This document shows positions 4,722 through 44,013 of a stretch of DNA of 44,031 nucleotides, piece by piece. This DNA comes from Candidatus Cloacimonadota bacterium (GTDB lineage Bacteria; Cloacimonadota; Cloacimonadia; Cloacimonadales; TCS61). Numbering within the stretch: the first letter of the stretch is position 1; each line of letters begins with the position of its first letter. The stretch lies in contig JASUTE010000012.1 in NCBI GenBank assembly GCA_030445745.1, positions 1 through 44,031 on the forward strand. The letters are read 5' to 3'. The notes under the pieces are model-generated. The model did not search any database and was not told the origin of the DNA. It saw only the letters and a program-made list of their open reading frames with translations. The translations under genes were made by a program, and so were the position numbers.

Positions 4722-4796
4722 TGGCGTCCCGTAGGGGAGTCGAACCCCTGTTGCAGGAATGAAAATCCTGAGTCCTTACCACTAGACGAACGGGAC
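4722..4796 (-). tRNA. tRNA-Glu (anticodon TTC)
   Basis: The reverse complement starts GTCCCGTTCGTCTAGTGG and has acceptor GTCCCGT/ACGGGAC. The anticodon arm CAGGA-TTTTCAT-TCCTG carries TTC. The T arm is AGGGG/CCCCT. The discriminator is G and CCA is encoded at 4724-4722. It is the second gene of a two-tRNA unit. Confidence 0.97.
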
Positions 4797-4806
4797 ACAT
4801 TTATTA

Positions 4807-4881
4807 TGGTGAGCCTGGATGGATTCGAACCATCGACTCTCTGCTTAAAAGGCAGATACTCTACCTCTGAGTTACAGGCCC
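4807..4881 (-). tRNA. tRNA-Lys (anticodon TTT)
   Basis: Acceptor GGGCCTG pairs with CAGGCTC including one G-T pair. The anticodon arm TCTGC-CTTTTAA-GCAGA carries TTT, and the T arm is GATGG/CCATC with TTCGAAT. The discriminator is A and CCA is encoded at 4809-4807. It is ten bases upstream of tRNA-Glu. Confidence 0.97.
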
Positions 4882-18178: not shown

Positions 18179-18258
18179 TACTCCTCCTTAATTTTATCAA
18201 AATTCGGCTTTTTTATGAATTTTGTTAATTTTCACAATAATTTTAGCTTCTAAAAATA

Positions 18259-18264
18259 TGTCAA
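18259..18264 (-). promoter_or_regulatory. Candidate -35 box (TTGACA) for the subtilisin gene
   Basis: Minus-strand TTGACA lies 81 bases before the subtilisin ATG, inside a 170-base gap after the upstream gene's terminator. ATTATT follows at 17 bases as a possible -10. The leader of about 45 bases would be A/T rich. Confidence 0.42.
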
Positions 18265-18346
18265 CAAAAGGATTTGGAAAAACTGCGAACAGTAACAGAT
18301 AATGATTGGTAATAGAAATTGTAAATCGATAATTTTCTGATTTTGA

Positions 18347-18376
18347 TATATAAAAAGGGGCGCAAATTTGCGCCCC
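18347..18376 (-). terminator. Intrinsic terminator after the anchor-J/FN3 gene
   Basis: A perfect 20-base palindrome at 18357-18376 (GGGGCGCAA arms) forms a strong GC-rich hairpin and is followed on the minus strand by TTTTTATATA. It lies 57 bases downstream of the stop at 18434 and is the strongest terminator in the window. Confidence 0.9.
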
Positions 18377-18390
18377 TAACATCTGTTCAA

Positions 18391-18446
18391 CAGACTATTT
18401 CATCAGGACCTGTCCCATGAAATTACGTAAGTACTATTTCATCAGG
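18391..18446 (-). promoter_or_regulatory. Stop-codon-spanning hairpin in a cargo-gene 3' end
   Basis: On the minus strand, CCTGATGAAAT (18446-18436) faces ATTTCAT (18423-18417) and CAGG (18412-18409), giving an 11-bp stem with a four-base bulge and the loop AGTACTTACGTA. The TAG stop straddles stem and loop. A near-identical sequence follows the stop of the gene ending at 44013. A second partial copy (TCCTGATGAAATAGT) lies at 18407-18393, between this hairpin and the terminator. Function is unknown; an RNA element is inferred. Confidence 0.5.
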
Positions 18447-21289
18447 ATCATTTTTTCTGTGAGTGTTTTGTCTGCTGTTTGTAATTTATAGAAATAAACA
18501 CCACTTGTTACTGCATTTCCTTGTTCATCGGTACCATTCCATACTCTGGTAGTAATACCTTGATCAACAGTTTCATCTAGTAGTGTTTTAACCAGTTGGC
18601 CTCTTAGATTATATATCTTAATAGTGGCTTTTCCAGCTTTTTCCATATTAAGTTCTATTGTAGTTTCTGGGTTGAATGGATTAGGATAGTTGCGAACATA
18701 AGCGCTAGCTACAGGAACTGGATCTTCTTCGTTGCTAGAGTTTGCACCTTCTACGATGGCACGAATCATCAGATTACCAGTTTCAAGCAAGGCCCAGCCA
18801 CCATCATTGGTATAGGAGTATCCTGAACCACTTTCATCTAAACCTATAGCAGAAAGACCAGCCATTTCGAAAATACCCAGATAGAAACCACCTTCGGTGA
18901 TTTGTGCTGGAGAGTCGAAACCGATTGTATTCCAACCTGCCTGCAGTTGATCACCAGATACTGCCTGTTGTACTAATTGAGTACCAGGCATTCCATCTGC
19001 GCCATCATCATCCCAAACTCTCAATACTAACTGACCAGTATTAAGTTCATGTACAAATACTTTAGCATAAGTTACTGTTATTGTATCATCTTCATAATCT
19101 GGATTGAACTTCACTGCCATATTTTTTGCTACACCAACATTATAGCCAGATTCGCTAGTACCATCATCATGGAACAGTTCTACAGAAGTAGATGAAGGTA
19201 CAAAAGCAACCGCTTCATTGGAAAGATCTGATTCCAAATCACCATACATGGCAGTTACTACATAGTAGTTATATGCATCTTCTAGTGGTGTAGTATGAGT
19301 ATATTCTTCCACTAATCCAACTTCTTCTACCAGTTCATAAGGGCCACCACTTGTTTCAGAATGGTAGATCTTGTAGCTGGTGGGATCTTCACGCTCTTGC
19401 TGAGTTTGCATTTTAACAACTTTACCATCTGGTTGCTCTACCCAACCATGGATAACCCAGTTGTAATTGAAATCTGATGAATAGTCGGAGAAGTTGCCAC
19501 CAAGGGTTGTTGCCATCCATAATCCATTTACAGCTGGGCCTTGGTCAAAGCCAGCAGAATAACCTGCTCCGGTATTAGGATCAGCAGCATCAACCTGGTT
19601 GATCTGATAACCAATCCAGTAAGTTTGACCTGCCTCTAAAGTAACAGGTTCATCCAAAGTAATTTCTTTTAAGGTTTCAGGAGTTACAGAAGTAACGGGT
19701 TGAGTAGTAAGCAGAGTTCCCCCGCCTGCACCTGTCCAAATAGCTACTGTATACTCAGAAGTAGTAGAAGTGCCTGGCATGAATTCTACTGTAGTGATTT
19801 CGCCACCTACATAAGGTAAAATGTCGCCAGAACCGAATTTGCTAGCAACTTGCCATTCGCCTGGTTCGGTAAGGCCAAGAGAAGCATAGTATGTGCCATT
19901 ATCCCATTGTAGCCAACCTTCTTCGCCACCAATTGCAGGAGCGTCCCAAGTAATATTTACTTGATAATCTTCAGTTGCTTCGGCAGTAACATTTTCTGGT
20001 GGAGGACCAGCATAGAACATGTTATAAACACGTACATCATCGATGTACAAACCATCGCCTACACCACCATCATCATTATCATCTGTTTTCACTTCGAATT
20101 TAAGTTGAATATCTTGGCCTGCCCAGCTGGTAACTTCACAAGTACCATCTTGCCAGCCAAAGGTAGCCAGAGCATATTCCTGGTCGATAAGTGTCCATAC
20201 TTCTGCAACACCACCAGCATCGGGTCCCTGGAAATTGTAATGCAGTTGTGCCCAAGCATCTTCTTCAACGCCCTTGGCATATGCAAAATAGTAATCTTCC
20301 AAGGAATTATCGCCATCTCCATCAGAGTCTGGCATTGCACAATATACCCAATAATCCATATAAATTTCTGCAGAGTTAGGTAAGGTAACTACAGGAGAAA
20401 TCAGTCCATTCAGCAGATTTGGTTCTACAGAACAGTGAGCTGCTTGAGAGCCATTGTGAGCGTTATCTGAAGTAATTTCCCAGAAATCACCTGAAATTTC
20501 TCCGCCATAACCAGTAACCATTTGGTTGTCGCCAGCAGCGCCGTCACCATCAGATTCGAATGTACCGCTACTGGTATCAATAACAATATCATCTACTCTA
20601 AAGCCGAACATATTAGGATCATCTTCAGTAGAATAAGCAGGGTCAGAAGCAAAAGCAAAACGGATCATTACTTCTTGGCCAGCATAATCGGAAAGATCGA
20701 AAGTAGCTGGTGTCCAGTCTACCCAGTTAGTTGTACTTCCCCAACCAGGAACGCCAGGGCCTTCGCCGAATTCAAAACCAAAAGAATAGAAACTAGTTCC
20801 ATTGTAAGCTGGAGTACCTTCTATTACTGTCCAAGTTGTGCCACCATCGGTTGAAATACGAATATTAGCGCCATCCCATGCATCGTAAGGATCACTCACA
20901 CCTGGGTCTTCGCAATTCAGGCTGAACATAAAATTAAGTTCTGGTGCCGATGAGCTTAGAGTAATAGCTGGTGTATCCAGTACCAAATAACGATGGTTGG
21001 TATATCCACCCAGACCTTCATCACCCATCCACCAAGAGTTACCTTCATAGGCGCCTGTTGTCGATAAATGCCATTCTTCATTCCAATCTGTGGGTGAAGT
21101 TGCATCAACAGTTGTCCAATCTCCTATACCTTCTTCAAAACCTTCTTCGAACAGAATGTTCATGTCGCGATTCGCGCGTTGTGCTTTGAACAAGGGTTTA
21201 GATTGGTTTTCGGGAATAATAGGATTGCCGGCGGCAAATAAGCCGATAGCAACCACTAACACTAAAAAGCTTGTTAGTAACTTTTTCAT
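18434..21289 (-). CDS. Large secreted protein: anchor-J/MAM-like, FN3 and sorting domains
   Basis: The 951-aa protein has a signal peptide (1-20). Residues about 45-240 (FEEGFEEGIGDWTTVD ... ISTDGGTTWTVIEG) and 250-425 look like two choice-of-anchor-J/MAM-like jelly rolls. A fibronectin III-like region starts near 432 (PPPENVTAEATEDYQVNITW) and encloses another sandwich domain, and a further sandwich begins at SVELFHDDGTSESGYN. The last 85 residues (NYPNPFNPETTI ... KMILMK) form the sorting domain. It has no recognisable active site and is probably an adhesin or surface-binding protein. It is monocistronic: own promoter, own terminator. Confidence 0.9.
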   Translation of the reverse strand: MKKLLTSFLVLVVAIGLFAAGNPIIPENQSKPLFKAQRANRDMNILFEEGFEEGIGDWTTVDATSPTDWNEEWHLSTTGAYEGNSWWMGDEGLGGYTNHRYLVLDTPAITLSSSAPELNFMFSLNCEDPGVSDPYDAWDGANIRISTDGGTTWTVIEGTPAYNGTSFYSFGFEFGEGPGVPGWGSTTNWVDWTPATFDLSDYAGQEVMIRFAFASDPAYSTEDDPNMFGFRVDDIVIDTSSGTFESDGDGAAGDNQMVTGYGGEISGDFWEITSDNAHNGSQAAHCSVEPNLLNGLISPVVTLPNSAEIYMDYWVYCAMPDSDGDGDNSLEDYYFAYAKGVEEDAWAQLHYNFQGPDAGGVAEVWTLIDQEYALATFGWQDGTCEVTSWAGQDIQLKFEVKTDDNDDGGVGDGLYIDDVRVYNMFYAGPPPENVTAEATEDYQVNITWDAPAIGGEEGWLQWDNGTYYASLGLTEPGEWQVASKFGSGDILPYVGGEITTVEFMPGTSTTSEYTVAIWTGAGGGTLLTTQPVTSVTPETLKEITLDEPVTLEAGQTYWIGYQINQVDAADPNTGAGYSAGFDQGPAVNGLWMATTLGGNFSDYSSDFNYNWVIHGWVEQPDGKVVKMQTQQEREDPTSYKIYHSETSGGPYELVEEVGLVEEYTHTTPLEDAYNYYVVTAMYGDLESDLSNEAVAFVPSSTSVELFHDDGTSESGYNVGVAKNMAVKFNPDYEDDTITVTYAKVFVHELNTGQLVLRVWDDDGADGMPGTQLVQQAVSGDQLQAGWNTIGFDSPAQITEGGFYLGIFEMAGLSAIGLDESGSGYSYTNDGGWALLETGNLMIRAIVEGANSSNEEDPVPVASAYVRNYPNPFNPETTIELNMEKAGKATIKIYNLRGQLVKTLLDETVDQGITTRVWNGTDEQGNAVTSGVYFYKLQTADKTLTEKMILMK

Positions 21290-25268: not shown

Positions 25269-25715
25269 ATGGAATTATTTTCAGCTAATTTGATAAAAAT
25301 AAACTATCCAGCAATAGATAAAAAAAGCTGTATAGACGAAATGGTGGAATTTCTTTACGAGCAAGGTGTAATAAATTCTACAGAGCAATTCCTGCAGGCA
25401 GTATGGCAAAGAGAAAATATCATGTCTACCGGTATTGGCCATCAGATTGCTATTCCTCATGCCCACAGCTCTGTAGTAAAAGAATTCAAAGCAGCTGTTT
25501 ATCTACTTGACAACCATATCGACTTCGATTCCATTGACGGCGAACCAGTAAAGCTGGTGATGATGTTGGCGGTACCAGAAAAATTTGAAACTACCTATAT
25601 GAAAACGTTAAGCAAGATCTCTAACTTTTTACGCACAGAAGATAAGAGAATAGCTTTGCTGGCAGCTCAAAGCAAAGAGGAAATTTTGGAAATTTTGGAA
25701 GGAATGAAAATATGA
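25269..25715 (+). CDS. PTS EIIA (fructose/nitrogen type) domain protein
   Basis: The 148-aa single-domain protein has the EIIA-2 fold signature GIGHQIAIPHAHS, with phosphorylated His64. In the family it accepts phosphate from HPr, either for sugar uptake or, as in PtsN, for regulation. There is no EIIB/EIIC gene nearby, which favours a regulatory role. Start is the ATG at 25269 with GAGGAG 11 bases upstream. Its stop overlaps the PorV-like gene (ATGA). Confidence 0.9.
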   Translation: MELFSANLIKINYPAIDKKSCIDEMVEFLYEQGVINSTEQFLQAVWQRENIMSTGIGHQIAIPHAHSSVVKEFKAAVYLLDNHIDFDSIDGEPVKLVMMLAVPEKFETTYMKTLSKISNFLRTEDKRIALLAAQSKEEILEILEGMKI

Positions 25716-26656
25716 AAAAAGCTTTGTTAATAATAGCAACCTTATTCTTATTAGGGAATTTAAAGGCTATAAACGAAAACGCTGGCACTAGTGGATTTTC
25801 GTTTTTTAAGGTAACCTATTCTGCTCGAGCTGCTGCTATGGCCAATGCCTATACTGGCTTAGCTGATCAAGAAGATGCTGTATTTTTCAATCCTGCCGGT
25901 CTTACCCAGATTTCCAAACCACAAGCAGGAGCCACCTATATGAGCTATTTCGATGGTGTAAACTGTGGCTCGCTGGTATATACTCAACCCTTACAAAATG
26001 AATTTTACATAGCTGCTTTTACTCAATTCCTTTCCGCCTCCGAAACAAAAACATTGGCAGATGCCAACGGCAATTATGCCGGCACCGATGGTAGCTTTGG
26101 TGTTTCAGAATTTTTGGCTGGCGCTTCTGTAAGCAAACATTTTAGCGATATGGTTAACGTTGGGTTAAGCGTAAAATTTTTACAGGAAACTCTCGATGAA
26201 CATTCCGCTTCAGCAGCAGCTATCGATATAGGAATCTTACATCAAACAACCAACCAAAACCTAAAAGTTGGTTTAGCTTTAAAAAATCTGGGCAAACAGC
26301 TCAGCTATTTCAGCAAAGAAGAATACCAAGAAAAATTGCCTCAAACCCTGCAAATAGGATTTAGCTATCATCCCGATCCTGCTCTGTTTCTTAATTTAGA
26401 CCTCTACAAGCCGCTGGAATATGATTTTTCTGCTTTAGTAGGTGCTGAATATAGACTGCATCAAATGTTTTGCCTACGTGCTGGTTATAAATCGAATGCC
26501 AAAGATTGGAAAACAGAAGGTGATTACAATTCATTTGCCGGATTTTCCATGGGATTCGGTTTGAATTGGCAAAACTATAATTTAGACTATTCTATAAACT
26601 CTTATGGCGATTTAGGATTTGTACATCAAATTTCCCTAAGATACAGTTTTAAATGA
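25712..26656 (+). CDS. PorV/PorQ-family outer-membrane protein
   Basis: The 314-aa protein has a signal peptide and the family core ARAAAMANAYTGLADQEDAVFFNPAGL, with strands to a terminal SLRYSFK. PorV-like barrels act as shuttles or attachment sites for type IX cargo in Bacteroidota. It is coupled to the EIIA gene by a four-base overlap, so the two are probably made together, an unexplained pairing. Confidence 0.88.
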   Translation: MKKALLIIATLFLLGNLKAINENAGTSGFSFFKVTYSARAAAMANAYTGLADQEDAVFFNPAGLTQISKPQAGATYMSYFDGVNCGSLVYTQPLQNEFYIAAFTQFLSASETKTLADANGNYAGTDGSFGVSEFLAGASVSKHFSDMVNVGLSVKFLQETLDEHSASAAAIDIGILHQTTNQNLKVGLALKNLGKQLSYFSKEEYQEKLPQTLQIGFSYHPDPALFLNLDLYKPLEYDFSALVGAEYRLHQMFCLRAGYKSNAKDWKTEGDYNSFAGFSMGFGLNWQNYNLDYSINSYGDLGFVHQISLRYSFK

Positions 26657-32133: not shown

Positions 32134-32139
32134 TTGACA
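32134..32139 (+). promoter_or_regulatory. Candidate -35 box (TTGACA) for the Ton operon
   Basis: TTGACA lies after a run of nine A in the 106-base gap before the receptor gene. No consensus -10 is visible at 17 bases (GTTTTT). It is flanked by imperfect inverted pieces, ACATCGTAG at 32112-32120 and CTACACGATGT from 32148, which might form an operator. The leader ends in AGGGGG nine bases before the receptor ATG. Confidence 0.42.
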
Positions 32140-32208
32140 CGATTTTTCTACACGATGTTTTTGTCTAAAGATAAAGTATAAAATCAATACTATAGGGGGA
32201 TTATTTTG

Positions 32209-35200
32209 ATGCGAAAAAAAATAGTTTTATTATTCGTACTAACAATTCTTTCGGTTTCAATACTGTTTGCCGGTACAACTGGTAAGCTGGCCGGTAGAGT
32301 TAAAGATGCTGATGGCAATCCAATTCCATATGCCAATATAGTTTTGGATGGGACAACCATTGGAACTCAAACCAAAGAGAATGGGCAATATATCATAATC
32401 AACATCGATCCCGGTACTTACGATGTTGTTTGTAGCCAGGTTGGCTATGGAACCAAAAAGGTTACCGGTGTTCGGATCAATGTTGATGAAACAACAATTC
32501 AAAACTTTACTCTGGTAACAGCTGCCTTACAAGTGGAAGGTATTTCTGTATCAGAAGCACGCGAAGAACTGGTAAGCAAAAGCAGAACCAGTTCTGGTCA
32601 ATCAGTAACTGCGGAATCCATTGAAGATGTTGCTGTGGGTGATATCGAGGGTATCGTTGCTATTCAAGCTGGTGCCAGCGAAACAAATGGAGAATTGCAT
32701 ATCCGTGGTGGACGTGCCAACGAAGTTGTTTACTCGGTAGATGGCATGTCGGTTTCTGACCCTGTAGACGGCGGAGCTGCCTTAACGGTGGACAAAGATG
32801 CTGTTCAGGATATGAGCGTAATGACTGGTGGCTTTACTGCTGAATATGGAAATGCGCAATCGGGTATTGTGAATATCGTAACCAAATCCGGGTCTGAAAA
32901 ATATAGTGGTAAGGTCGAATTTTCTTCCGATCACATTATAGAAGATATTGATAATTCCAATTCCGATGTCACAAAATTTGCTTTAGGTGGTCCTGTTTTA
33001 GGTCCAATAGCTCCCTCCATGCGAGATAAATTTACATTCTTCTTCAATGGTGCTGCCAATTGGCATGATTCACGCTATAAAGATTATTATGTTACCAACC
33101 CCAATGAAGACCTTAAATATTTATACAGTTCCGGTTACAGCGAATATGATCCTTATGAAGATAGAGATGATTTTATTGGTTTTGATTTAGGTGACAGAAA
33201 TTATAACCAATACAATGCTAACTTGAAAATGAAGTATGTTTTCAATCCGCGCCAAAATCTTACGGTAGCAATAAGAGGCGATAGAAATGTAAGCAATCCC
33301 TACAGCCATTACTGGAGATTTGCCTTAGATCACTACGCAAAAGTGGAAACAGAACAAAGGCAATATGCTTTTACCTACGATCATTCGTTCAGTTCTCAGA
33401 CAAACCTGAAAGTTAAAGCAAGTATCTATTCCAAAACTATCGAGGAAGGCCCTGACGGCATTCCCAGAGATTCGTATTTTTCCTATAACGGAGCTAACGT
33501 GGATCCCACTTTTTCATATTACTTGCCTACCGAAACTACAAACACAAGCAACCAACCATTTATTGAAATATTAACTGACGACGGCATTATAGGTGAAGGT
33601 GAGGAATTAGATTGGGAATATCTTACCGAAACAGGACGGCAATATGATGTGACTCCCTACTTTGCAGCTCCTGGCACAATCTATCCGAATAATATCGATG
33701 ATGAAACCCAAACCTTTTCCTTCCGTTCCGATTTTGAATACCAATACAATCAAATTCATGGATTTAAAACTGGGATAGAAATAATAAAGCATGATATTAG
33801 AAAAAATAGACAATATAACCCCTGGGATATTGATGCCTTTCGCTATGATGAATACCTTAAAGCTGTTGGCCCAGATACCACTTTGGTAGCAGGTGATTAT
33901 ATTATAAACGGAGAAGAAATAACCTTGGAAGAAGATACAGATTTTTACACTCCAGAAAAATTGTATAATGCTACTATGGCTGCTGCAGGTTATACTGATG
34001 GTTATGAGGCAGACCCGTGGCAGGCAGCTTATTATCTACAAGATAAAATGGAATGGGAAGGCATGATTGTGAATGCTGGATTGCGTTTCGATTTCTGGTA
34101 TTTAGGTGAAAAATATAAAATATTCAAAGATACCGGCGATGTTTATAAACACTTCGATAATGATGACCGTATGCAATTAATGGTTTCACCACGTCTCGGT
34201 ATTTCTCATCCTATCTCGGAAAACAGTGTTGTGCATTTTGCCTATAACTACCAAAACCAGCTGCCAGAAATGCAATATGTTTTTACCAGTACCGAAGCTG
34301 AAGATGCCATTACTAATCAAAACCAAAATATCATTATTGGGAACCCTACTTTGGAACCACAGATCACCGCTACTTATGAAGTTGGCTGGCAACATCAGTT
34401 TGGGGAAGATTATGTGATGGATATTACCGCTTATTACAAAAATATCTATAATTATGTTAGTACGGAAAAAGTATATCTACAAGATGATGGAAGCCTAATA
34501 CCTTACTCGGAAGTTCAGGCAAGCGATAACCCTGACCAATATGATACCACCACTGAACTTTATAAATATATCACTCAAGACTACGGTAGCGCTCGCGGTA
34601 TCGACTTCAACCTTTCTAAAATGCTTTCCAACTTTATCTCTGGTTCTATGGCCTATTCTCTTTCTTGGGCTGAAGGAAATAATTCAGACACGGTAGTACA
34701 AGATGAAGCAACCAATTTAAGAGAATTCCCACTAGATTGGGATACCAGGCACAACTTTAATTTCAATTTCAATTTCAACATTGGAAGAGGTGAAGAATTC
34801 TTTATCCCCTTTACAGACGTAATCCTTCCCTTAGATAACTTTAAGATCAACTTCCTGTACAACATAAGCTCGGGTAAACCATACACCCCGCAAGATCAAG
34901 AAGGAAACCCCTTAGAAGTTAACAGCGAAAGATATCCACATACCGAAAAAGCTGACCTTAAGATAGTGAAAACGTTTAACTTAAACGATAACACATATTT
35001 CAAAGTTTATGCCGATATCCAAAATCTTTTCAATAGAAGAAATATATATTATGTATACCCAAGAACAGGTAATGCTTACGACGACGGAGTAGACCTAACT
35101 GAAACTAACACCAATTATATTCCAGAAGCCAGACAGTATATCCACGATCTCTCTACTGATAACCCAAGTAACTACAGTTCTGGTAGAACCCTTACTTTCG

Positions 35201-35220
35201 GTATGTCTTTCCATTGGTAA
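32209..35220 (+). CDS. TonB-dependent outer-membrane receptor
   Basis: The 1003-aa protein (start at the ATG at 32209, not the TTG one codon earlier) has a signal peptide (1-22) and a carboxypeptidase-regulatory-like Ig domain (about 27-107, GRVKDADGNPIPYANIVLDG). A plug domain follows (about 130-245, LHIRGGRANEVVYSVDGM, FTAEYGNAQSGIVNIVTKSG), then a 22-strand-type barrel ending in FGMSFHW. Substrate is unknown; no extracellular binding lipoprotein (SusD) is adjacent, so it is not a standard glycan locus. It heads an operon with its own Ton motor. Confidence 0.95.
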   Translation: MRKKIVLLFVLTILSVSILFAGTTGKLAGRVKDADGNPIPYANIVLDGTTIGTQTKENGQYIIINIDPGTYDVVCSQVGYGTKKVTGVRINVDETTIQNFTLVTAALQVEGISVSEAREELVSKSRTSSGQSVTAESIEDVAVGDIEGIVAIQAGASETNGELHIRGGRANEVVYSVDGMSVSDPVDGGAALTVDKDAVQDMSVMTGGFTAEYGNAQSGIVNIVTKSGSEKYSGKVEFSSDHIIEDIDNSNSDVTKFALGGPVLGPIAPSMRDKFTFFFNGAANWHDSRYKDYYVTNPNEDLKYLYSSGYSEYDPYEDRDDFIGFDLGDRNYNQYNANLKMKYVFNPRQNLTVAIRGDRNVSNPYSHYWRFALDHYAKVETEQRQYAFTYDHSFSSQTNLKVKASIYSKTIEEGPDGIPRDSYFSYNGANVDPTFSYYLPTETTNTSNQPFIEILTDDGIIGEGEELDWEYLTETGRQYDVTPYFAAPGTIYPNNIDDETQTFSFRSDFEYQYNQIHGFKTGIEIIKHDIRKNRQYNPWDIDAFRYDEYLKAVGPDTTLVAGDYIINGEEITLEEDTDFYTPEKLYNATMAAAGYTDGYEADPWQAAYYLQDKMEWEGMIVNAGLRFDFWYLGEKYKIFKDTGDVYKHFDNDDRMQLMVSPRLGISHPISENSVVHFAYNYQNQLPEMQYVFTSTEAEDAITNQNQNIIIGNPTLEPQITATYEVGWQHQFGEDYVMDITAYYKNIYNYVSTEKVYLQDDGSLIPYSEVQASDNPDQYDTTTELYKYITQDYGSARGIDFNLSKMLSNFISGSMAYSLSWAEGNNSDTVVQDEATNLREFPLDWDTRHNFNFNFNFNIGRGEEFFIPFTDVILPLDNFKINFLYNISSGKPYTPQDQEGNPLEVNSERYPHTEKADLKIVKTFNLNDNTYFKVYADIQNLFNRRNIYYVYPRTGNAYDDGVDLTETNTNYIPEARQYIHDLSTDNPSNYSSGRTLTFGMSFHW

Positions 35221-35255
35221 AATAAAATTTAATATAATTCAGGAGGAATAGGAAA

Positions 35256-36071
35256 ATGAGCAAAAGACTCTTAACCGTGTTGATAATAATGGCAATGGTT
35301 ATTATGACAAATATAGCCTTTGCACAAGATGAAGTACCCGCAGAACAAGAAGCTGCTGCGGAACAAGTAGAAACAGATACAACTGCCGCTGCTGCAGAAA
35401 CATTTGAAGAAATTCCAGAAATAGGTGGGCTGGAAATGTTTGCCCGCAAAATTGTAGGCAGTGGGCTGGTAGATCTATTTATTCAGGGTGGCTTTGTAAT
35501 GTGGCCATTGCTTGTATTGGTTATTTGGGCATTAGCTACCATTATTTGGAAATTAGTTTCCCTTAGCTATGCTAAAATTAATCTTACAGACTTTATGGAT
35601 AAACTACTACCCCTAATAGAAGAGAAGAAATATAAAGAAGCTATGGATTTATGTGAAAACACTCGTGGGCCAGTGGCAGCAGTGATTTATGCTGGACTAC
35701 AAAAGGCTGATAAGGACGTGGAAGCAGTGGAAAAAGCTATCGAAAATGCCGGTATTATCGAAATGGCATTTTTAGAAAAAGGATTCATCCCACTTTCCAC
35801 AACAATTAACTTAGCCCCTATGCTTGGTTTCTTTGGTACAATGGTTGGTATGATCCGCGCTTTCGCCGATATTGCCGCAGCCGGTGAAGTTGATCCTACA
35901 ATTGTGGCTTCCGGTATTCAAATTGCCCTTATTACCACAGCTGCTGGTTTGGCTATAGCTATCCCAGTACAATTCTTCAATAATATGTTCTTAAGTATGG
36001 TTGATGGTTTTACTATGGATATGCAACGAGGAACAGAAAAAGTGATAGAAACCCTTGTAGAAAATAAATAG
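35256..36071 (+). CDS. exbB: ExbB/TolQ-family proton channel subunit
   Basis: ExbB forms the pentameric stator that uses the proton gradient to move TonB. The 271-aa protein has an N-terminal cleavable-looking signal (ending IAFAQ), an acidic extracytoplasmic stretch of about 45 residues, and three membrane helices (about 75-100, 185-205, 215-240). The conserved LAPMLGFFGTMVGMIRAF and ALITTAAGLAIAIPV motifs are present. AGGAGGA precedes the ATG. It lies between the receptor and two exbD genes. Confidence 0.93.
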   Translation: MSKRLLTVLIIMAMVIMTNIAFAQDEVPAEQEAAAEQVETDTTAAAAETFEEIPEIGGLEMFARKIVGSGLVDLFIQGGFVMWPLLVLVIWALATIIWKLVSLSYAKINLTDFMDKLLPLIEEKKYKEAMDLCENTRGPVAAVIYAGLQKADKDVEAVEKAIENAGIIEMAFLEKGFIPLSTTINLAPMLGFFGTMVGMIRAFADIAAAGEVDPTIVASGIQIALITTAAGLAIAIPVQFFNNMFLSMVDGFTMDMQRGTEKVIETLVENK

Positions 36072-36079
36072 GGGGCTGA

Positions 36080-36487
36080 ATGCAATTTAAGAATAAAAGG
36101 AAAAATCTATCTGGAATTCCCACATCTTCAATGTCGGATGTGGCTTTCCTGCTGCTTATATTTTTCCTAACTACTACCAAATTCGATATTAAAAAGGGTT
36201 TGGGACTGGTTTTGCCTCCTGCTTCCACGCAGGCCGATAAAAAGGTAAGGCTAAAACAGGAAAATATTACTAAAGTTTGGGTTAACCAAAAAGGACAAGT
36301 CGCACTGAACGAAGAAATAGTTCCTTTGAACGAACTAGAATCTAAAGTAAGGAATATTGTCCTGGAAAATCCAGATATGGTAATCTCCTTCAAGACTGAT
36401 AGACAAAGTAAATACGATTATATGGTGAGAGTTCTGGATGTCCTGCAAGCAGCAGGGGCAGAAAAAATCTCCTTATCCACTAATTAG
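36080..36487 (+). CDS. exbD: ExbD/TolR-family protein, first copy
   Basis: The 135-residue protein has a short cytosolic N-terminus and one membrane helix with the proton-carrying aspartate (Asp20, in SMSDVAFLLLIFF). It ends with a periplasmic domain with TolR-type fold. It pairs with ExbB. It is eight bases after exbB and ten before the second copy. Confidence 0.93.
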   Translation: MQFKNKRKNLSGIPTSSMSDVAFLLLIFFLTTTKFDIKKGLGLVLPPASTQADKKVRLKQENITKVWVNQKGQVALNEEIVPLNELESKVRNIVLENPDMVISFKTDRQSKYDYMVRVLDVLQAAGAEKISLSTN

Positions 36488-36496
36488 GAAGGTATT

Positions 36497-36904
36497 ATGG
36501 CAAAAATAAAGAAAAAAGAAAGACCAGAAACACTTATACCTACTGCATCAATGTCTGATATTGCCTTTCTATTACTGATATTTTTCATGGTTTCCACCGT
36601 GTTTGTGAAAGAGCGAGGGCTTAACGTAACCTTGCCTAGAGCTGCAGAAATTGAAAAAATTCCTAGAAAAAATGCAGCCACCGTCTATGTAGATCGTTAT
36701 GGTACAATTTCGATTGATGATATGGTTGTGGAAATCCCTCAGGTATCAATAATAATGCAAAGAAAGTTGGCCGAGAATTTCAACCTACTTACAGCTTTCA
36801 GAACCGATAAAGAAACTAATTTTGGGATAATGTCAGATATTTTAAAGCAACTTCAAGAAGCTAATGCCTTGCGTGTTTCATTTGAAGCAAAGTTGAAAAG
36901 GTAG
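36497..36904 (+). CDS. exbD: ExbD/TolR-family protein, second copy
   Basis: Also 135 residues, with Asp21 in SMSDIAFLLLIFF and a periplasmic domain. It is a paralogue of the preceding gene: the membrane helix is highly similar, the periplasmic parts diverge. Tandem exbD genes are common in Bacteroidota-like Ton operons and may form a heterodimer at the stator centre. Confidence 0.93.
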   Translation: MAKIKKKERPETLIPTASMSDIAFLLLIFFMVSTVFVKERGLNVTLPRAAEIEKIPRKNAATVYVDRYGTISIDDMVVEIPQVSIIMQRKLAENFNLLTAFRTDKETNFGIMSDILKQLQEANALRVSFEAKLKR

Positions 36905-36911
36905 GTAAGTT

Positions 36912-37553
36912 ATGCAAAAAAAATCTTATGATTGGAAAGATATAGCGAACAGTTACTACGATAAAGCAACCAGCCTGGCTATTTTAATACTCATATTTGC
37001 TTTTCTGGTTTTCCCTAAATTTGAAATAAAACCATATAAAAGGGAAGTAAAAGTAACTGAGGCTATAGAGATTCCACCAGAAATAAAAGAAAAGATCAAA
37101 CCACCGGAAACGGTTGTGAAACCTGTTGTGCAAGTGGTAGTGGAAGAAGACTTCGCCGGTACGGAAGAAGAAGACATAGAAATAGTTGAAACTATCGAAA
37201 AAACTTCTTTGGATCCTTATGAAGAAATTGCACCACCACCACCACAGTTCGGAACTACACCAAAATTCGTTGTTTACGAAGATCCACCAGTTCCAATAAA
37301 ACAGGTGCAACCTAAATATACAGACTTCGCCCGTCGCACTGGCATTGAAGGCCAAGTATGGCTGGAAGTGGAAGTGCTAAAAAACGGTAAAGTGGGCGCA
37401 GTTGAAGTAAAAAAATCTCTGCTCTCTGGGCCAGGTGGCTTAGATGAAGCAGCGATAAAAGCTGTGAAACAATGGGAATATTCTCCAGCCAAAAGCGGTG
37501 GCAAACCTGTGGCGTGTTGGATAACTTTCCCCATAACTTTCGAATTAAAATAG
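36912..37553 (+). CDS. tonB: TonB energy transducer
   Basis: The 213-aa protein has an N-terminal membrane helix (about 17-34), a Pro/Glu-rich periplasmic linker (EIPPEIKEKIKPPETVVKP), and a C-terminal TonB domain (about 125-213) with YTDFARRTGIEGQVWLEVEV and the AIKAVKQWEYSPAKSGG end. It contacts the receptor plug and transmits energy. It is in the same operon as the receptor, exbB and both exbD genes. Confidence 0.95.
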   Translation: MQKKSYDWKDIANSYYDKATSLAILILIFAFLVFPKFEIKPYKREVKVTEAIEIPPEIKEKIKPPETVVKPVVQVVVEEDFAGTEEEDIEIVETIEKTSLDPYEEIAPPPPQFGTTPKFVVYEDPPVPIKQVQPKYTDFARRTGIEGQVWLEVEVLKNGKVGAVEVKKSLLSGPGGLDEAAIKAVKQWEYSPAKSGGKPVACWITFPITFELK

Positions 37554-37580
37554 ATAGATTCAAAAATTGGAGGATTATAT

Positions 37581-40500
37581 ATGAGATTATTTAAATCCAA
37601 GTTTTTAGTAATGCTGATATTACTTAGCTTGCTTGGTGTCTTTTTGGAAGCTCGCTCGGTGGATGGCGAAGGCGCTTTTAAAAAAAGAGATCATTCCAAG
37701 GTACACAGAATAGGTAATATCTGGCTACGAGTAAGTAATTATGGGTTTTTTGGCTCTGGTGACAACTCACCCCAGTGGCCATCTTTGGAATACCCGGGTG
37801 GAAGTGCCATAGACTACCTTTACCAAGGCGCATTATGGTTTGGTGCAAAAAAATATCGTCGCGATCAATTTAACAGAAGATTGTTTTGGCTACCAGATGC
37901 TTCTAATAAAGATGATGTAGTGGCAGAAGGCTCTAATATGTACGACTCCCTGCTTACTGCTGGATTCGATTTAGAAGTTGTGCTGGATACCCTTACCACC
38001 GTTGGCTTCGATGGAGACTTAAATTTATATGAATTTTTGCCAGCCTACAACGTTTTGGAAACATCTCCCTTAGGTTTACAATACAGTCAATACAACAATC
38101 AAGATGTCATTATGGGAGCTTCTATTAGGAATCAACGCCGTGGAGTAGATGATGACGGTGATGGCCTGATAGATGAAGATCCGGTTGGTTATGGTTTTCC
38201 TATGCGCTTGGCTGATGAATTACCAGAAGTTTTCCAAGAATATGGTAGCAGTGCCGGTAGTCCAGCCTTCCTACATCAGGCAGAAGGAGCTTACGGAATA
38301 GACCCTATTTTGAACAATATAGACATTTGGTTCCCACTTGGTTTTGTCGATCTTAGCGATACTTCTAACGAGTTGTATAACTTTGCCGAACCACATGATG
38401 ATGATGTAGATGGTTTGGCAGATGAAGATGGTTACCCAGTTTCTGAACAAGATTACGTTTCATTCTACTATGATTATTCACCTTTTGGAACACCTGGACA
38501 GCGCTCCTTTGGTAGTTCCGCATCCTCAAATGATCACGTTCCCTTAAATGTTCGGGTTCGCCAAATGAGTTATCAATGGAGTTATGACTATATTAAAAAC
38601 TTGGTCTATGTAGAATTTGATATAACCAATATGAATATAGCTACCCAAGACACTCTATTTGATTGTGCCATGGGTATTTATATGGATAGCGATGTAGGTC
38701 CCCAGGCTTGGGGAGCCACCGATAGGGCTTCAGATGATATTAGTAGTTATGTGTTATCCCACGAATTTGCTTATACTTACGATGCTGATCAAGACGGAGG
38801 ACTTACAACCGGCTATGTTGGCTCACGAGTTTGTACTCCTGACCCAGAACAACTTGAATTTGCCTGTTGGACTTGGAAAGTAGGCGATGGCCCTGATGAT
38901 TTCGATCCACTAGATACTTTCAATCCGGGCGGTAAGGCTACAGCAAATCAAAAATATTGGCTGCTTACAGATAAAAATCCAGATGATAGCAAATATACTT
39001 CACTAAGAGATTTTCCCAATACACAGATAAGCAACCCAGTCGATACACGTTACTTATTTGCTTTCTATGGCGACCAACAAGGCTTCGATGAACCTACAGA
39101 AGGATCTTGGAATCTGGAACCAGGCAAAACGATGAAGATCGTTATTGCTGTTTTCCCTGGTCAAACCTTAACAGAATTACAAGGACAAGCAGAATGGGCT
39201 GCAGAAGTATACGAAAGTCCACAAACTCTTACCACAGTTACAGTTCCCGATACAGCAATTCACTATGTTGCCCCAGAACCTCCCAAAATTCCTAATATGA
39301 ATGCTATCCTGGTTAATAATGGAAACGCTATCGATGTTTTTTGGGATAATAGATCAGAAATAGATAATTTAGATACTAAAACTGTAACCAAAGGTTATGT
39401 AGGCTGGCAAGATTCACTAGCTACGCTTGATAGTCATATCAGCAACTACGATCCCAACACTTTCCCAGATGATTTCGCTCCTCCTGCTGATCCTTCTGAA
39501 TATAATAATAGTGCTATAGTAAACCCATGGACAGCTTACAGGCTGCGCCACGACTTTCAAGGTTATACTGTTTGGGGACGCTCCGGTAGCGGCTCACAAG
39601 AAGACTGGATGGAAATAGGTAGATGGGATAAAATAGATACTGATCAAGATTACGAAGATTATAATGTAAATGAAGGTGCAGAACAATACGTTTATTTCGG
39701 TGGTGATACAGGTAAAGATCTTGGACTGCCGCAACCCGTAGTGCTTGACTCTACTAACCCCGAACATCAAGAATATTTCAACTATTACCGTTTTAACGAA
39801 ATGTATGAACTGGTTCATTACGAAGATGGCGATATATTCTACGGCAAACCTTTATATAACTATGAACTTACTTATACCGACAGCTTACAAGACTATGTAG
39901 ATGCGCTTTATCCCTCTCCAAAAACAGAAATTGAGTTGGAAGAAGAAGCTTGGCTTTTTGCCAGTGATGCATTGAAAGCAATGGGAGAGAGAGGACGAGA
40001 AATATATCTTTCGTTGTACGATGATAAACTTATTCCACTAAAAGAACATGGTGGACAGTCTTATGGATATAACTACGAAGGTGCTGGAGAAGCTGAAGAT
40101 AATGTAAAAGATCGTTTAGCAAGGCGCTACTACAAAGCACAAATTATGCATCCACCTAAAGGGATAGAATACTATCTGGCAGTAACCTCTTGGGATAGAG
40201 GTATTCCAAATAAAGATTTGCAGTCATTGGAATCTGGGCGTGATGAAGATGCGAATATGCAGATAGTTTTCCCAGGGCCTAGTGCTAAATCGAGCATGAA
40301 TGATGTGCACGTGGTTCCCAATCCTTATGTAGGGCAAAGTAAATTCGACGGTAGGCGCGAAAACGATGAAAAAGGTGACAAAAGTCGGAGACTTTGGTTC
40401 GTAAATGTGCCAGAGAAATGTAAAATTAGAATCTTCACCCTTGCCGGAGACCTGGTAGATACCATCCATCACGATGGTGCTGAAACAACAGATATAATAT

Positions 40501-40664
40501 CTGTAAGTAAGGCCGCTGATATCGGAGTTTCGGCCTCTGGTATAGCTCCTTGGGATCTACTTTCCAGGAACAACCAGATAATAGCACCTGGTGTATATCT
40601 GTTCTCGGTAGAAAATCTGGATGGTGGAGATATAAAAGTTGGCAAGTTTGTCATCATTAAGTAG
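37581..40664 (+). CDS. Large exported protein with atypical C-terminal domain
   Basis: I do not recognise the core of this 1027-residue protein. It has a signal peptide (1-24) and calcium-type aspartate motifs (VDDDGDGLIDEDP at 189-201 and a second one, DDDVDGLADEDG, near 275). There are long Asp/Tyr-rich beta regions and an FN3-like segment beginning near 575 (PPKIPNMNAILVNNG). The end (about 915-1027: VVPNPYVG ... IRIFTLAGDLVDTI ... APGVYLFSV ... GKFVIIK) resembles FlgD-like sorting domains but differs from the NYPNPFNP type elsewhere here. It is likely surface-exposed. GGAGG precedes the ATG. It sits between tonB and a PorV-like gene. Confidence 0.85.
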   Translation: MRLFKSKFLVMLILLSLLGVFLEARSVDGEGAFKKRDHSKVHRIGNIWLRVSNYGFFGSGDNSPQWPSLEYPGGSAIDYLYQGALWFGAKKYRRDQFNRRLFWLPDASNKDDVVAEGSNMYDSLLTAGFDLEVVLDTLTTVGFDGDLNLYEFLPAYNVLETSPLGLQYSQYNNQDVIMGASIRNQRRGVDDDGDGLIDEDPVGYGFPMRLADELPEVFQEYGSSAGSPAFLHQAEGAYGIDPILNNIDIWFPLGFVDLSDTSNELYNFAEPHDDDVDGLADEDGYPVSEQDYVSFYYDYSPFGTPGQRSFGSSASSNDHVPLNVRVRQMSYQWSYDYIKNLVYVEFDITNMNIATQDTLFDCAMGIYMDSDVGPQAWGATDRASDDISSYVLSHEFAYTYDADQDGGLTTGYVGSRVCTPDPEQLEFACWTWKVGDGPDDFDPLDTFNPGGKATANQKYWLLTDKNPDDSKYTSLRDFPNTQISNPVDTRYLFAFYGDQQGFDEPTEGSWNLEPGKTMKIVIAVFPGQTLTELQGQAEWAAEVYESPQTLTTVTVPDTAIHYVAPEPPKIPNMNAILVNNGNAIDVFWDNRSEIDNLDTKTVTKGYVGWQDSLATLDSHISNYDPNTFPDDFAPPADPSEYNNSAIVNPWTAYRLRHDFQGYTVWGRSGSGSQEDWMEIGRWDKIDTDQDYEDYNVNEGAEQYVYFGGDTGKDLGLPQPVVLDSTNPEHQEYFNYYRFNEMYELVHYEDGDIFYGKPLYNYELTYTDSLQDYVDALYPSPKTEIELEEEAWLFASDALKAMGERGREIYLSLYDDKLIPLKEHGGQSYGYNYEGAGEAEDNVKDRLARRYYKAQIMHPPKGIEYYLAVTSWDRGIPNKDLQSLESGRDEDANMQIVFPGPSAKSSMNDVHVVPNPYVGQSKFDGRRENDEKGDKSRRLWFVNVPEKCKIRIFTLAGDLVDTIHHDGAETTDIISVSKAADIGVSASGIAPWDLLSRNNQIIAPGVYLFSVENLDGGDIKVGKFVIIK

Positions 40665-40673
40665 GGAGGAATT

Positions 40674-41708
40674 ATGAAAAAATATATATTAATACTCATT
40701 GTACTAGCAATCGTCCCTAGTTTTCTGTCAGCAGCGATCTTTGCCAAAACAGGTACAGCAGGCTTGCAATTCCTAAAACTTGGTGTAGATGCCCGAGCTA
40801 TAGGGATGGGACAAGCTTATACAGCAGTTTCCGATGATATTTCTTCTATCTATTGGAATCCTGCTGGACTTTCTTTAAAATACAAAGATCAATTTATGTT
40901 CTCTCATACAGAATGGGTAGCGGATATTCGTCACGAATTCTTTGCTGCCTCCAAGGTAACCTCTATTGGTAATTTAGGCTTCTTTGCTTCTGCTTTGCAT
41001 ATGGACTGGATGGATGTGTATACTGAAGAAAGTTTCGACGAACCCACAGGCGAAGAGTTTACATGTTATGATTTAGCGTCTGGTTTCACTTATTCAAATG
41101 CATTTACCGATAAATTCTCTTTTGGTATAACTGCAAAATATCTAAGAGAAAAACTGGATGATTATGATGTGAATGGATTCTCGGTAGATATAGGAACTCT
41201 GTACAATACAGGGTGGAGAAATTTAACCCTGGGAATGGCACTGAGAAACTTCGGTCCAGATCTTCAATATGAAATTGACAACGATGATGATAGCTCTTTG
41301 GACGAAGACCCATTTGACCTTCTTGATAACGACGGTGACGGACTTATTGATGAAGATAGAGAAGAAGTTCCCTTTAAAATACCTATGAACTTCTCTCTGG
41401 GTATTTCGGGCGACCTGTATCGTGATGATGAAAACCATAGCGCCCTCATAGCTTCAGTGCAATTAGACAGTTATGTAGATAGAAAAGAAACGTACAACCT
41501 AGGAGCTGAATATCAGATAGGATCTTTTAAAATAAGATCTGGCTATCAGTTTGAATATGATGCTGCAGGATTTTCTGCCGGTTTCGGCTGGACTATTCCC
41601 GCTAGCTTTGCCATAATTAATCTTGATTACTCTTATTCAGATTTGGGTTATCTATCGGAAGATATGATAAAAACTCCTCATAGATTGTCGTTGAAATTGT
41701 TATATTAA
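40674..41708 (+). CDS. PorV/PorQ-family outer-membrane protein with Asp-rich insert
   Basis: The 344-aa protein has a signal peptide (1-20) and the family core GVDARAIGMGQAYTAVSDDISSIYWNPAGL. The terminal strands end LSLKLLY. An unusual insertion at about 202-229 contains two aspartate-rich units, the second DNDGDGLIDED, almost the same as the motif of the upstream 1027-aa protein. PorV-like proteins act as surface attachment or shuttle factors for secreted cargo. It closes the seven-gene Ton operon, just before a terminator. Confidence 0.9.
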   Translation: MKKYILILIVLAIVPSFLSAAIFAKTGTAGLQFLKLGVDARAIGMGQAYTAVSDDISSIYWNPAGLSLKYKDQFMFSHTEWVADIRHEFFAASKVTSIGNLGFFASALHMDWMDVYTEESFDEPTGEEFTCYDLASGFTYSNAFTDKFSFGITAKYLREKLDDYDVNGFSVDIGTLYNTGWRNLTLGMALRNFGPDLQYEIDNDDDSSLDEDPFDLLDNDGDGLIDEDREEVPFKIPMNFSLGISGDLYRDDENHSALIASVQLDSYVDRKETYNLGAEYQIGSFKIRSGYQFEYDAAGFSAGFGWTIPASFAIINLDYSYSDLGYLSEDMIKTPHRLSLKLLY

Positions 41709-41719
41709 TTTTTATTTAG

Positions 41720-41755
41720 AAACTCTCTCGTCAGAGGGAGTTTCTATATTTTTAT
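41720..41755 (+). terminator. Intrinsic terminator of the Ton operon
   Basis: Arms 41720-41729 (AAACTCTCTC) and 41734-41743 (GAGGGAGTTT) pair over ten positions with one G-T, closing a four-base loop GTCA. TATATTTTTAT follows. It lies 11 bases after the PorV-like stop and defines the 3' end of the operon begun at about 32140. Confidence 0.85.
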
Positions 41756-41856: not shown

Positions 41857-44013
41857 ATGAGAAGAATTACAATTATTTTTGTAATGTTGATTTTAGTTGG
41901 TTCACTTTTTGCTGATGAAATAATGCAGCCAACTGGTCCTAGTAAAGCAGTTGAAAGCCCCAACATATTTAGTGGATATTTAAAAACAAGCACCCGAATA
42001 GTACCCAATTGGAGCTGGGTAACCACACCAAGTGATATTATTTCTACCTACTACGATTACCAACCAGGTAGTTATTGCAGTTCACCTTTAAGAGTACAAC
42101 CAGAGATCTCTCAGCCCTATAACCATCCTGCTGGTGGCTCGTATCTTGCCTTCCATACACAAGAAACTTCGAACTCTACCAGACGCGTATATTACGCCTA
42201 TGTAGATGGTAGTGGTACTGTTACCTCTGTAGACCCCATCTCTGCTTGGGATTTAAGTGAAGGGTATGCTGGAGTAGATGTTGATCCTGTTACAGGCGAT
42301 CCTTTTGTAGCTTTTCATGTAAATATGGATGAAGAAGCTACTTACGAAGACGCTTTTGCTTATGACCTTTACCACTTGATGGGAACAGCAGGTTTGTGGA
42401 CTACTCCATTCGACGTTATTGACAACAGCGAATTAGCAGACCAGGGTATATTACCATATAACGATGATGAGTTTATCTGGCCTTATACTTATGTTGGTGA
42501 ATCTCCCTTAGGAAGTGATTACCGCCGTGTATACATTACAGCAAACAACTTTACTAGCGCACATGGCTCTCAAGGCGATCCTGCTGAAAATGTGTTACTA
42601 GCTTATGCTGATTTTACCAATGCTGACCTGGATGTACAATCTACTCTGGAATGGACTTATAGAACAGTAGAACAATTTGATGCATGGAATGCAGAAAATC
42701 CTGAATGGATAAGACCTTTTAAAGCTATGGCTGTCCACGAAAATATAGTTGCTTACATTGGTTATCACACAGGTGAAACAGCAGAAGATGGTTATACTTA
42801 CTCTACGTTTTTCGCTTTAATTAACGATAATTACGGTGAAGGTCCATTTGAATATTATGAAACACCCGCTACTTTCCCATTAGAAAATCCTATGAATGAA
42901 GCTGGAACTGAATATCTATATTCCGATCCTAATACACCAGGTACACCTTATGAACTTTTGCAAGACATCATACACTCAGGTCATATGGATGCCAAATTTA
43001 TGGAAGATGGCTCTAAACTATATTGGATGGGTTCTTTGGGAATTACATTCGACACTTTAGACGGCAACGGACCTGGTTATTACTATCCTAACTGGCTACA
43101 AGTTTATCCTAAAATGTTCTATTTCGATCTCGCAAATGAAGAATTTGGTTTTTACGATATGTACATCGAAGGTGCAAATCCTGCAGATGATACTCCAATG
43201 GTTCCTTGGGATCTTGATGAAGATGGCGAAGTAGATAGTTATGATGCCGATGGCTACCCAGAATGGCCAATGAGCTGGACGGTATACTGGCATGTTGGAG
43301 ATGATGCATTTCATGAAAATTACTATCATATAGCCAAAAATGAAGAAAATGGCTGGATGGCAGCTGTTTGGTCAGATGGTTCTAAAGCTAAATTGGTAGC
43401 TGATGAACTGCCGGGTGCAGACCCTGTGTGGGAAGCTAAACCAGAAATAATGATTTCTGTTTCTAAAGATTCAGGAGCTTCCTGGAGTGAACCAATCCGC
43501 TTGAACGCTAACGATACCCCAGAACTAGCAGGCCAAATCCCCGAATATATCTATCCTGCAGATATTATTAAAGATATGGGAGATAACCACGGACTATTAC
43601 AACTTATGTATCTGGATGATAACTCTTGGGGTTCCAATATTCAAGGTAACGGCCTTGCTAATGGCGGTACTATAAAATATGCATCTCTGGATATCGATTT
43701 CAATTACTCTAGCACTGAACCTTCTGTAGTACCTGTAGCTGCTCGTTTAGGACAAAACTATCCTAATCCATTCAACCCAGAAACTACCATTTCCTATGAA
43801 ATGTTACAAAATGGCGAAGTTACCATAAATGTTTACAACTTGAAAGGTCAAAAAGTAAAAACTTTGGTTAACGATACCAAAGCAGCTGGTGAACACACAG
43901 TAGTTTGGAATGGTAAAGATGATAGTGGAAACAATGTTTCCAGTGGCGTTTATTTCTATAAAATGCAAGCTGGTAGATATACTTCTACTAAGAAAATGAT
44001 CCTGATGAAATAG
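41857..44013 (+). CDS. Secreted Asp-box/propeller-like protein with sorting domain
   Basis: The 718-aa protein has a signal peptide (1-19). Its body shows repeated beta-strand units with tryptophan and aspartate, an Asp-box SKDSGASWSEP (about residue 535) as in sialidase-like propellers, and a calcium-type stretch DLDEDGEVDSYDADG (about 450). No sialidase active site is recognised. The last 80 residues (NYPNPFNPETTI ... KMILMK) are a FlgD-like sorting domain, very similar to that of the 951-aa protein. AAAGGAGG lies before the ATG. It is outside the Ton operon but directly behind its terminator. Confidence 0.9.
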   Translation: MRRITIIFVMLILVGSLFADEIMQPTGPSKAVESPNIFSGYLKTSTRIVPNWSWVTTPSDIISTYYDYQPGSYCSSPLRVQPEISQPYNHPAGGSYLAFHTQETSNSTRRVYYAYVDGSGTVTSVDPISAWDLSEGYAGVDVDPVTGDPFVAFHVNMDEEATYEDAFAYDLYHLMGTAGLWTTPFDVIDNSELADQGILPYNDDEFIWPYTYVGESPLGSDYRRVYITANNFTSAHGSQGDPAENVLLAYADFTNADLDVQSTLEWTYRTVEQFDAWNAENPEWIRPFKAMAVHENIVAYIGYHTGETAEDGYTYSTFFALINDNYGEGPFEYYETPATFPLENPMNEAGTEYLYSDPNTPGTPYELLQDIIHSGHMDAKFMEDGSKLYWMGSLGITFDTLDGNGPGYYYPNWLQVYPKMFYFDLANEEFGFYDMYIEGANPADDTPMVPWDLDEDGEVDSYDADGYPEWPMSWTVYWHVGDDAFHENYYHIAKNEENGWMAAVWSDGSKAKLVADELPGADPVWEAKPEIMISVSKDSGASWSEPIRLNANDTPELAGQIPEYIYPADIIKDMGDNHGLLQLMYLDDNSWGSNIQGNGLANGGTIKYASLDIDFNYSSTEPSVVPVAARLGQNYPNPFNPETTISYEMLQNGEVTINVYNLKGQKVKTLVNDTKAAGEHTVVWNGKDDSGNNVSSGVYFYKMQAGRYTSTKKMILMK

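Follow-up and report, generated by a model that had tools for sequence, protein, structure and literature searches.

How bacteria of the Bacteroidota feed through TonB-dependent receptors (TBDRs) is explained by SusCD, in which the gene for a receptor with a CarboxypepD_reg extension lies beside that for a surface protein; most of the other Fibrobacteres-Chlorobi-Bacteroidetes (FCB) genomes examined here lack SusD. Surface proteins with a barrel of their own are described for the type IX secretion system (T9SS) of Porphyromonas gingivalis, where one PorV-family outer-membrane barrel holds one protein with a C-terminal domain (CTD), as in PorU:PorV and PorZ:PorQ (PMC5562754), the loops of PorV gripping the CTDs (PMC10994853), and for proteins with a type B CTD, which go with PorP-like barrels, as in PG1035:PorP and SprB:SprF (PMC9143113). 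Oar of Myxococcus is a TonB-dependent transporter with its own TonB-ExbB-ExbD-ExbD cluster that secretes the protease PopC, and its architecture of N-terminal extension, plug and barrel is common, being dominant among Bacteroidetes receptors (PMC6434023). Here we analyse a stretch of 44,031 nucleotides from a Candidatus Cloacimonadota bacterium (assembly GCA_030445745.1, contig JASUTE010000012.1), referred to as the window, which carries at 32206-41708 a seven-gene operon for a TBDR, a Ton energy system (ExbB-ExbD-TonB), a 1027-residue protein named S for the purposes of this article, and a PorV/PorQ-family barrel. The parts are of known kinds, the combination of receptor, S and barrel is new, and we found no description in the open-access literature of a module joining a TBDR, a PorV-family barrel and a CTD protein; in one Cloacimonadota genome paper the T9SS is named in the reference list only. 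The reading that we favour, while giving it about an even chance of being right, is that S is delivered by the T9SS, docks on a PorV paralogue of its own and serves the receptor in Ton-driven import, and would thus do a SusCD-like job with T9SS parts.

Each of the described systems resembles the operon in part. Like SusCD, it sets a TBDR with a CarboxypepD_reg extension beside a surface protein gene, occurs in many paralogous copies in some genomes, and includes a lipoprotein in one of its gene orders, but it has no SusD, its receptor scores far under the SusC/RagA cut-off (27 bits with TIGR04056, cut-off 368), S has a T9SS-type CTD and no lipobox, and a PorV-family barrel is added. Like PorU:PorV and PorZ:PorQ it pairs a surface protein, here with a CTD-like C-terminus, with a PorV-family barrel, and searches by fold and by profile relate that C-terminus of S to PorZ and PorU; unlike those pairs, the operon links a TBDR, S has no sortase or beta-propeller that we could find, and the barrel falls under the cut-offs of the models for both T9SS PorV and T9SS PorQ proper (NF033710, 73 of 250 bits; NF033711, 103 of 220). 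The type B pairs likewise retain a T9SS-exported protein on its own outer-membrane barrel, although with another CTD class, another barrel family and no receptor. Oar/PopC of M. xanthus matches in receptor architecture and in having its own TonB-ExbB-ExbD-ExbD cluster, whereas a PorV-family barrel or CTD cargo is not described in that system. The Bacteroidota BAM complex (BamG, BamH) also has a FadL/PorV-like barrel with surface partners and is conserved across FCB phyla, but the operon contains no BamA and its barrel scores 35 bits against the BamG cut-off of 250 (NF053685).

The receptor, S and barrel trio across phyla

S is present in 114 of 125 Cloacimonadota genomes (67 of the 71 good ones), and the order TBDR-ExbB-ExbD-ExbD-TonB-S-PorV recurs in full at 37 operon loci that represent 12 of the phylum's 13 families, two further loci being interrupted by contig ends. 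A first description of the window made without database searches (the sequence-only reading) had read the shared operon as a sign of an assembly and had proposed a search of related genomes for the same gene order; the association is indeed no accident, for that order is conserved in close relatives and throughout the phylum, and TBDR, S and PorV recur together in other phyla as well. Over the 37 Cloacimonadota operons, median identity to the window proteins is 55% for S, 60% for the barrel, 61% for ExbB and 48% for the receptor, beside 51% for the neighbouring glycyl-tRNA synthetase (GlyS), 63% for an aminotransferase and 36% for the sorting-domain protein downstream. Since their identities lie near that of GlyS and far over that of the downstream CTD cargo, S and the barrel, judged by sequence, evolve like housekeeping proteins and unlike ordinary surface cargo. 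The upstream neighbours (glycyl-tRNA synthetase, phosphate acetyl/butyryltransferase-like, aminotransferase and lipoate ligase-like genes) and the sorting-domain protein downstream are often kept too, so the operon locus is old and stable. Ten more S copies in the fetched Cloacimonadota loci are paralogues without Ton genes. In divergent S paralogues of Cloacimonadota (L102, L103, L104, L106) a classical sorting tail takes the place of the usual C-terminus, and genes for Ton proteins, receptor or barrel are absent from the surroundings.

In other phyla, a search with an S profile found relatives in 44 of 165 genomes; part of these matches cover the C-terminal domain alone, while 31 fetched loci share N-terminal or middle blocks of S also. 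Those that could be named belong to Gemmatimonadota, KSB1, Zixibacteria, Eisenbacteria, Fermentibacteria, Marinimicrobia/Fidelibacterota, Calditrichota, Ignavibacteriota, UBP14 and a few Bacteroidota, and none was found in the viral contigs searched. Counting only S loci with at least 7 kb of flank on both sides, a TBDR and a PorV-family gene stand within 9 kb of S on the same strand at 25 of the 31 named loci and at 14 of the 17 others. The trio recurs in about ten phyla related to Cloacimonadota, with Gemmatimonadota, KSB1, Zixibacteria, Eisenbacteria, Fermentibacteria, Marinimicrobia and Ignavibacteria among them, and its 44 three-gene modules follow four orders: TBDR-S-PorV (21), S-X-Y-TBDR-PorV (13), Ton-containing (6) and TBDR-PorV-.-S (4). 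In the five-gene form, X is a protein with a T9SS-type CTD and Y is mostly lipoprotein-like. Examples were seen in Marinimicrobia, Ignavibacteria and KSB1 (L205, L213, L214, L229, L237, L239, L254), with LTD or OB-fold matches in some X proteins and a Y of about 500 residues that has no Pfam match. Outside Cloacimonadota the trio is usually without Ton genes, yet one Gemmatimonadetes locus (L177) reproduces the window's seven-gene set exactly, a locus in another phylum (L151) and a further one (L154) have nearly the same set, and at L141, L161 and L167 the Ton genes lie downstream of the trio.

The trees of S, barrel and TBDR correlate at r 0.90-0.96, as high a value being reached in none of 2000 permutations; only three to four changes of gene-order type are needed on the S, barrel and receptor trees, and KSB1 modules mostly cluster by architecture type, not with one another. 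Receptor, S and barrel are thus co-inherited, and because they persist with congruent trees while Ton genes drop in and out, the constant unit is receptor plus S plus barrel and the Ton genes are its optional company. The sequence-only reading had allowed that its proposal would suffer if the last two genes were commonly found apart from the Ton genes; the two are indeed commonly separated from the Ton genes, while the receptor stays with them. Its "dedicated motor" is not supported, for the trio elsewhere usually lacks Ton genes and the window's own genome has two ExbB-type motors for four plug-domain receptors, which makes it probable that the operon's Ton system serves other receptors too. 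The second motor, ExbB-ExbD-TonB_C on another contig of this genome (C16 of G000; L087, 8610-10432), is not clearly Tol-Pal, neither TolB nor Pal having been recognised in the genes around it. The operon's receptor is itself unlike the other three receptors of its genome; with an N-terminal extension, plug and barrel and with linked Ton genes, it is as in the Oar-type architecture.

The absence of a SusD-type lipoprotein, noted from the operon alone by the sequence-only reading, extends to the whole genome, in which no SusD (PF07980) was found. Of the 159 genomes in which S has a match, 4 have SusD, and S is missing from the two genomes searched that are rich in SusD, a small sample of that kind. 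This complementarity of SusD and S, the adjacency of a surface protein gene to that of the receptor, and the lipoprotein added in the five-gene form together suggest a SusCD-like division of labour between receptor and S.

The S protein and its type IX secretion context

S has a signal peptide predicted by inspection and no match in Pfam. An AlphaFold model (59 homologues; pLDDT 68, pTM 0.73) and an independent one of a 661-residue KSB1 homologue (pLDDT 84) both begin with a large beta-supersandwich followed by a fibronectin-III (FN3)-like part and a C-terminal domain, in S at about 35-570, 575-900 (with an insertion) and 905-1027, respectively. In comparisons with VIA-align the supersandwich gave a best-row Z of 19.8 and 20.1 in the two models and superposed on bacterial glucoamylase 1lf6 over 238 residues at 3.1 Å and 233 at 2.9 Å, and fold searches found a resemblance also to the N-domains of GH116, GH94 and GH65. 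This sugar-enzyme-like fold, as modelled, is a hint of carbohydrate recognition that falls short of proof, and because of it a glycan or glycoconjugate is a plausible substrate. The sequence-only reading had concluded that the usual glycan-import interpretation does not apply; the main domain of S, which has the fold of glucoamylase and sugar phosphorylase N-domains, goes against this, as does the five-gene form, whose additional lipoprotein and sorting-domain cargo make it much like a SUS locus. Matches of S to cytokine and insulin receptor ectodomains in the PDB fold searches were set aside as generic FN3.

A profile search of PDB sequences with a Cloacimonadota-only S alignment gave no match, and the C-terminus of S finds the CTD of PorU (6za2) in such a search at E 0.008. 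Foldseek, which returns PorZ and PorU for the C-terminal domain of both models, places that of S with PorZ (5m11, 4e-5) and PorU (7e-4), the NCBIfam PorZ model matches it at E 0.002, and the Gemmatimonadota S protein reaches 18 of the 23 bits asked by TIGR04183. The C-terminal motifs of S, PNPY, I-R-I-Y-T-L-x-G-D-L-V, G-V-Y-L-Y-S-V and G-K-F-V-I-I-K parallel the ordinary sorting domain of the neighbouring cargo, S having an insertion before GVY. No lipobox was found in the S proteins of the 44 modules. As S ends in a T9SS-type domain, co-occurrence with the translocon protein SprA is what one would expect of T9SS cargo, and outside Cloacimonadota SprA was found in 43 of the 44 genomes with an S match against 12 of the 121 without. 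The CTD and this co-occurrence support the proposal, already made by the sequence-only reading, that S is a surface protein and has a partner of the PorV type.

The genome of the window has SprA (G000:C27:9081-10604, with further matches), a PorU-like sortase and some 45 further places that match the CTD part of the sortase model. The operon's barrel, whose family profile finds the solved PorV structure 6h3i at 1.3e-29, is one of seven PorV-family genes, and five of the seven have a large CTD protein encoded next to them (PorU, M6-like, subtilisin-like, nuclease-like and S); the PorU-like sortase gene thus has a PorV-family gene of its own. This adjacency suggests one-to-one pairs of carrier and cargo. 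The other four such genes stand beside an M6-like pseudopeptidase, a subtilisin-like protein, PorU and an ExeM-like CTD protein (L091, L092, L093, L094). Another PorV/PorQ-family gene lies within the window but outside the operon (25712-26656, plus strand; 155 bits with NF033709 and 150 of the 220 bits required with the T9SS_PorQ model), directly after a phosphotransferase system EIIA-like gene and with no CTD partner adjoining; being nearest to PorQ, it is possibly the PorQ that this genome uses in its T9SS. GldM/PorM, the motor subunit of the canonical T9SS (TIGR03517), was undetected in this genome and in all SprA-bearing genomes tested, 112 Cloacimonadota included, and its one match in the 290 genomes is in a genome without an SprA match; as the model is Bacteroidota-based and could miss a diverged motor, divergence is the sober explanation.

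Import, export or mere co-regulation

In the import reading that we favour, S would cross the inner membrane by its Sec signal and be exported through SprA by means of its C-terminal sorting domain, and would be kept at the surface by docking of this domain on the co-encoded barrel, in the way that PorQ receives PorZ and PorV receives PorU. Its supersandwich/FN3 body would then lie over or beside the receptor, capturing or gating substrate as SusD does for SusC, with TonB-ExbB-ExbD-ExbD powering the operon receptor and probably the cell's other receptors as well. That S travels by the T9SS, docks at the barrel and forms a complex with the receptor, and that transport is inward, we infer. Several observations weigh against this proposal. 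A capture protein specific to a receptor would be expected to vary with diet, and S evolves like a housekeeping protein; some S copies have neither receptor nor barrel beside them; no neighbouring pathway or riboswitch names a substrate; the periplasmic domain of YidC, which has no sugar role, shares the supersandwich fold; and by sequence the CTD of S stays under the Pfam and NCBIfam sorting-domain cut-offs (PF18962, TIGR04183). Were the import reading true, a receptor partner supplied by the T9SS and held by a PorV paralogue of its own would solve in a second way the problem that SusCD solves, PorV-family paralogues would have a role beyond PorV and PorQ, and a function would be at hand for the S family, which has no Pfam entry and in Cloacimonadota is conserved like a tRNA synthetase.

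The operon may instead be a matter of shared regulation between mechanically separate parts, general envelope equipment in the form of the main Ton motor of the cell and one receptor on one side and a T9SS surface protein with its PorV carrier on the other, S and receptor never touching. We consider this unlikely, if by no means negligible: in other phyla the trio has Ton genes beside it at some loci and not at others, S occurs alone or with only PorV at some loci within Cloacimonadota (L074, L079, L086, L099-L101), and just two ExbB motors serve the four receptors of the genome, but the trio stays joined across four gene orders with congruent trees, and a mere bundle would not retain exactly receptor, S and barrel. 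Export in the manner of Oar, in which the TBDR with ExbB-ExbD-ExbD-TonB secretes S or aids its passage across the outer membrane, with PorV keeping S on the outside, strikes us as improbable; the precedent of Oar and PopC secretion in Myxococcus and the same N-terminal architecture (PMC6434023) speak for it, as the operon receptor is of Oar type, yet that architecture is common, and dominant in Bacteroidetes, and with its T9SS-type CTD and its tracking of SprA, S has a known route available.

A further possibility, to which we give little credence, makes the module a part of protein export itself, a Ton-type motor replacing GldL-GldM and the TBDR, S and PorV forming a station for release or attachment of cargo. 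It would fit the failure to detect GldM in all SprA-bearing genomes searched, the core-gene-like conservation of S and the resemblance of its CTD to the CTDs of PorU and PorZ, both of which act in attachment. Against it, the GldM model, built on Bacteroidota, may miss diverged motors, the trio does not always have Ton genes nearby, and S is present in many genomes as several paralogues, which does not look like a single export machine. Extended to FCB phyla outside Bacteroidota, the idea would be that a T9SS without GldL-GldM has its export or assembly driven by TonB-ExbBD at the station formed by the trio, one Ton operon powering both uptake and type IX delivery; this we regard as a long shot. 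The undetected GldM makes the power source of the T9SS in these phyla a directly testable question.

Operon anatomy and other features of the window

The seven genes, all on the plus strand, have the place, order and families that the sequence-only reading gave them, and form a compact operon with intergenic distances, in gene order, of 35, 8, 9, 7, 27 and 9 bases. Families were assigned with Pfam and NCBIfam models and their cut-offs. The TBDR gene (32206-35220; 1003-1004 residues, ATG at 32209 being a likelier start than 32206) encodes a CarboxypepD_reg N-terminal extension, a plug and a barrel, with matches to PF13620, PF13715, PF07715 and PF14905. It is followed by ExbB, the proton-channel subunit (35256-36071, 271 residues; PF01618, 96 bits, cut-off 22.9), two copies of ExbD (36080-36487 and 36497-36904, each of 135 residues; PF02472, 91 and 71 bits) and TonB (36912-37553, 213 residues; PF03544, 72.5 bits; TIGR01352, 61 bits, cut-off 27.1), all four over the Pfam family cut-offs and so assigned to a Ton energy system. 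Tol-Pal was rejected as the identity of this motor, TolQ reaching 78 of 221 bits and TolR 46 and 36 of 127, and neither TolB nor Pal is found within the operon. S (37581-40664) and the PorV/PorQ-family barrel (40674-41708, 344 residues; NF033709, 195 bits, cut-off 90) complete the set.

The claimed terminator is borne out by a Rho-independent hairpin at 41717-41746 (plus strand), with a 13-pair stem, a minimum free energy of -19.4 kcal/mol and a z of -5.8. The promoter-like box fared less well: TTGACA does stand at 32134, ahead of the operon, but promoter-like sites number 33 against 32.1 in shuffled sequence, which is no excess. No riboswitch or other structured RNA was found upstream of the operon. 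The sorting-domain protein 3' of the operon (41857-44013) has a relative at 30 of the 37 operon loci, although its sequence is only 36% identical; two more sorting-domain proteins, one of them subtilisin-like with repeats, lie on the minus strand at 14885-21289. Two small tRNA clusters, of four and two genes, occupy 141-516 and 4725-4881, also on the minus strand.

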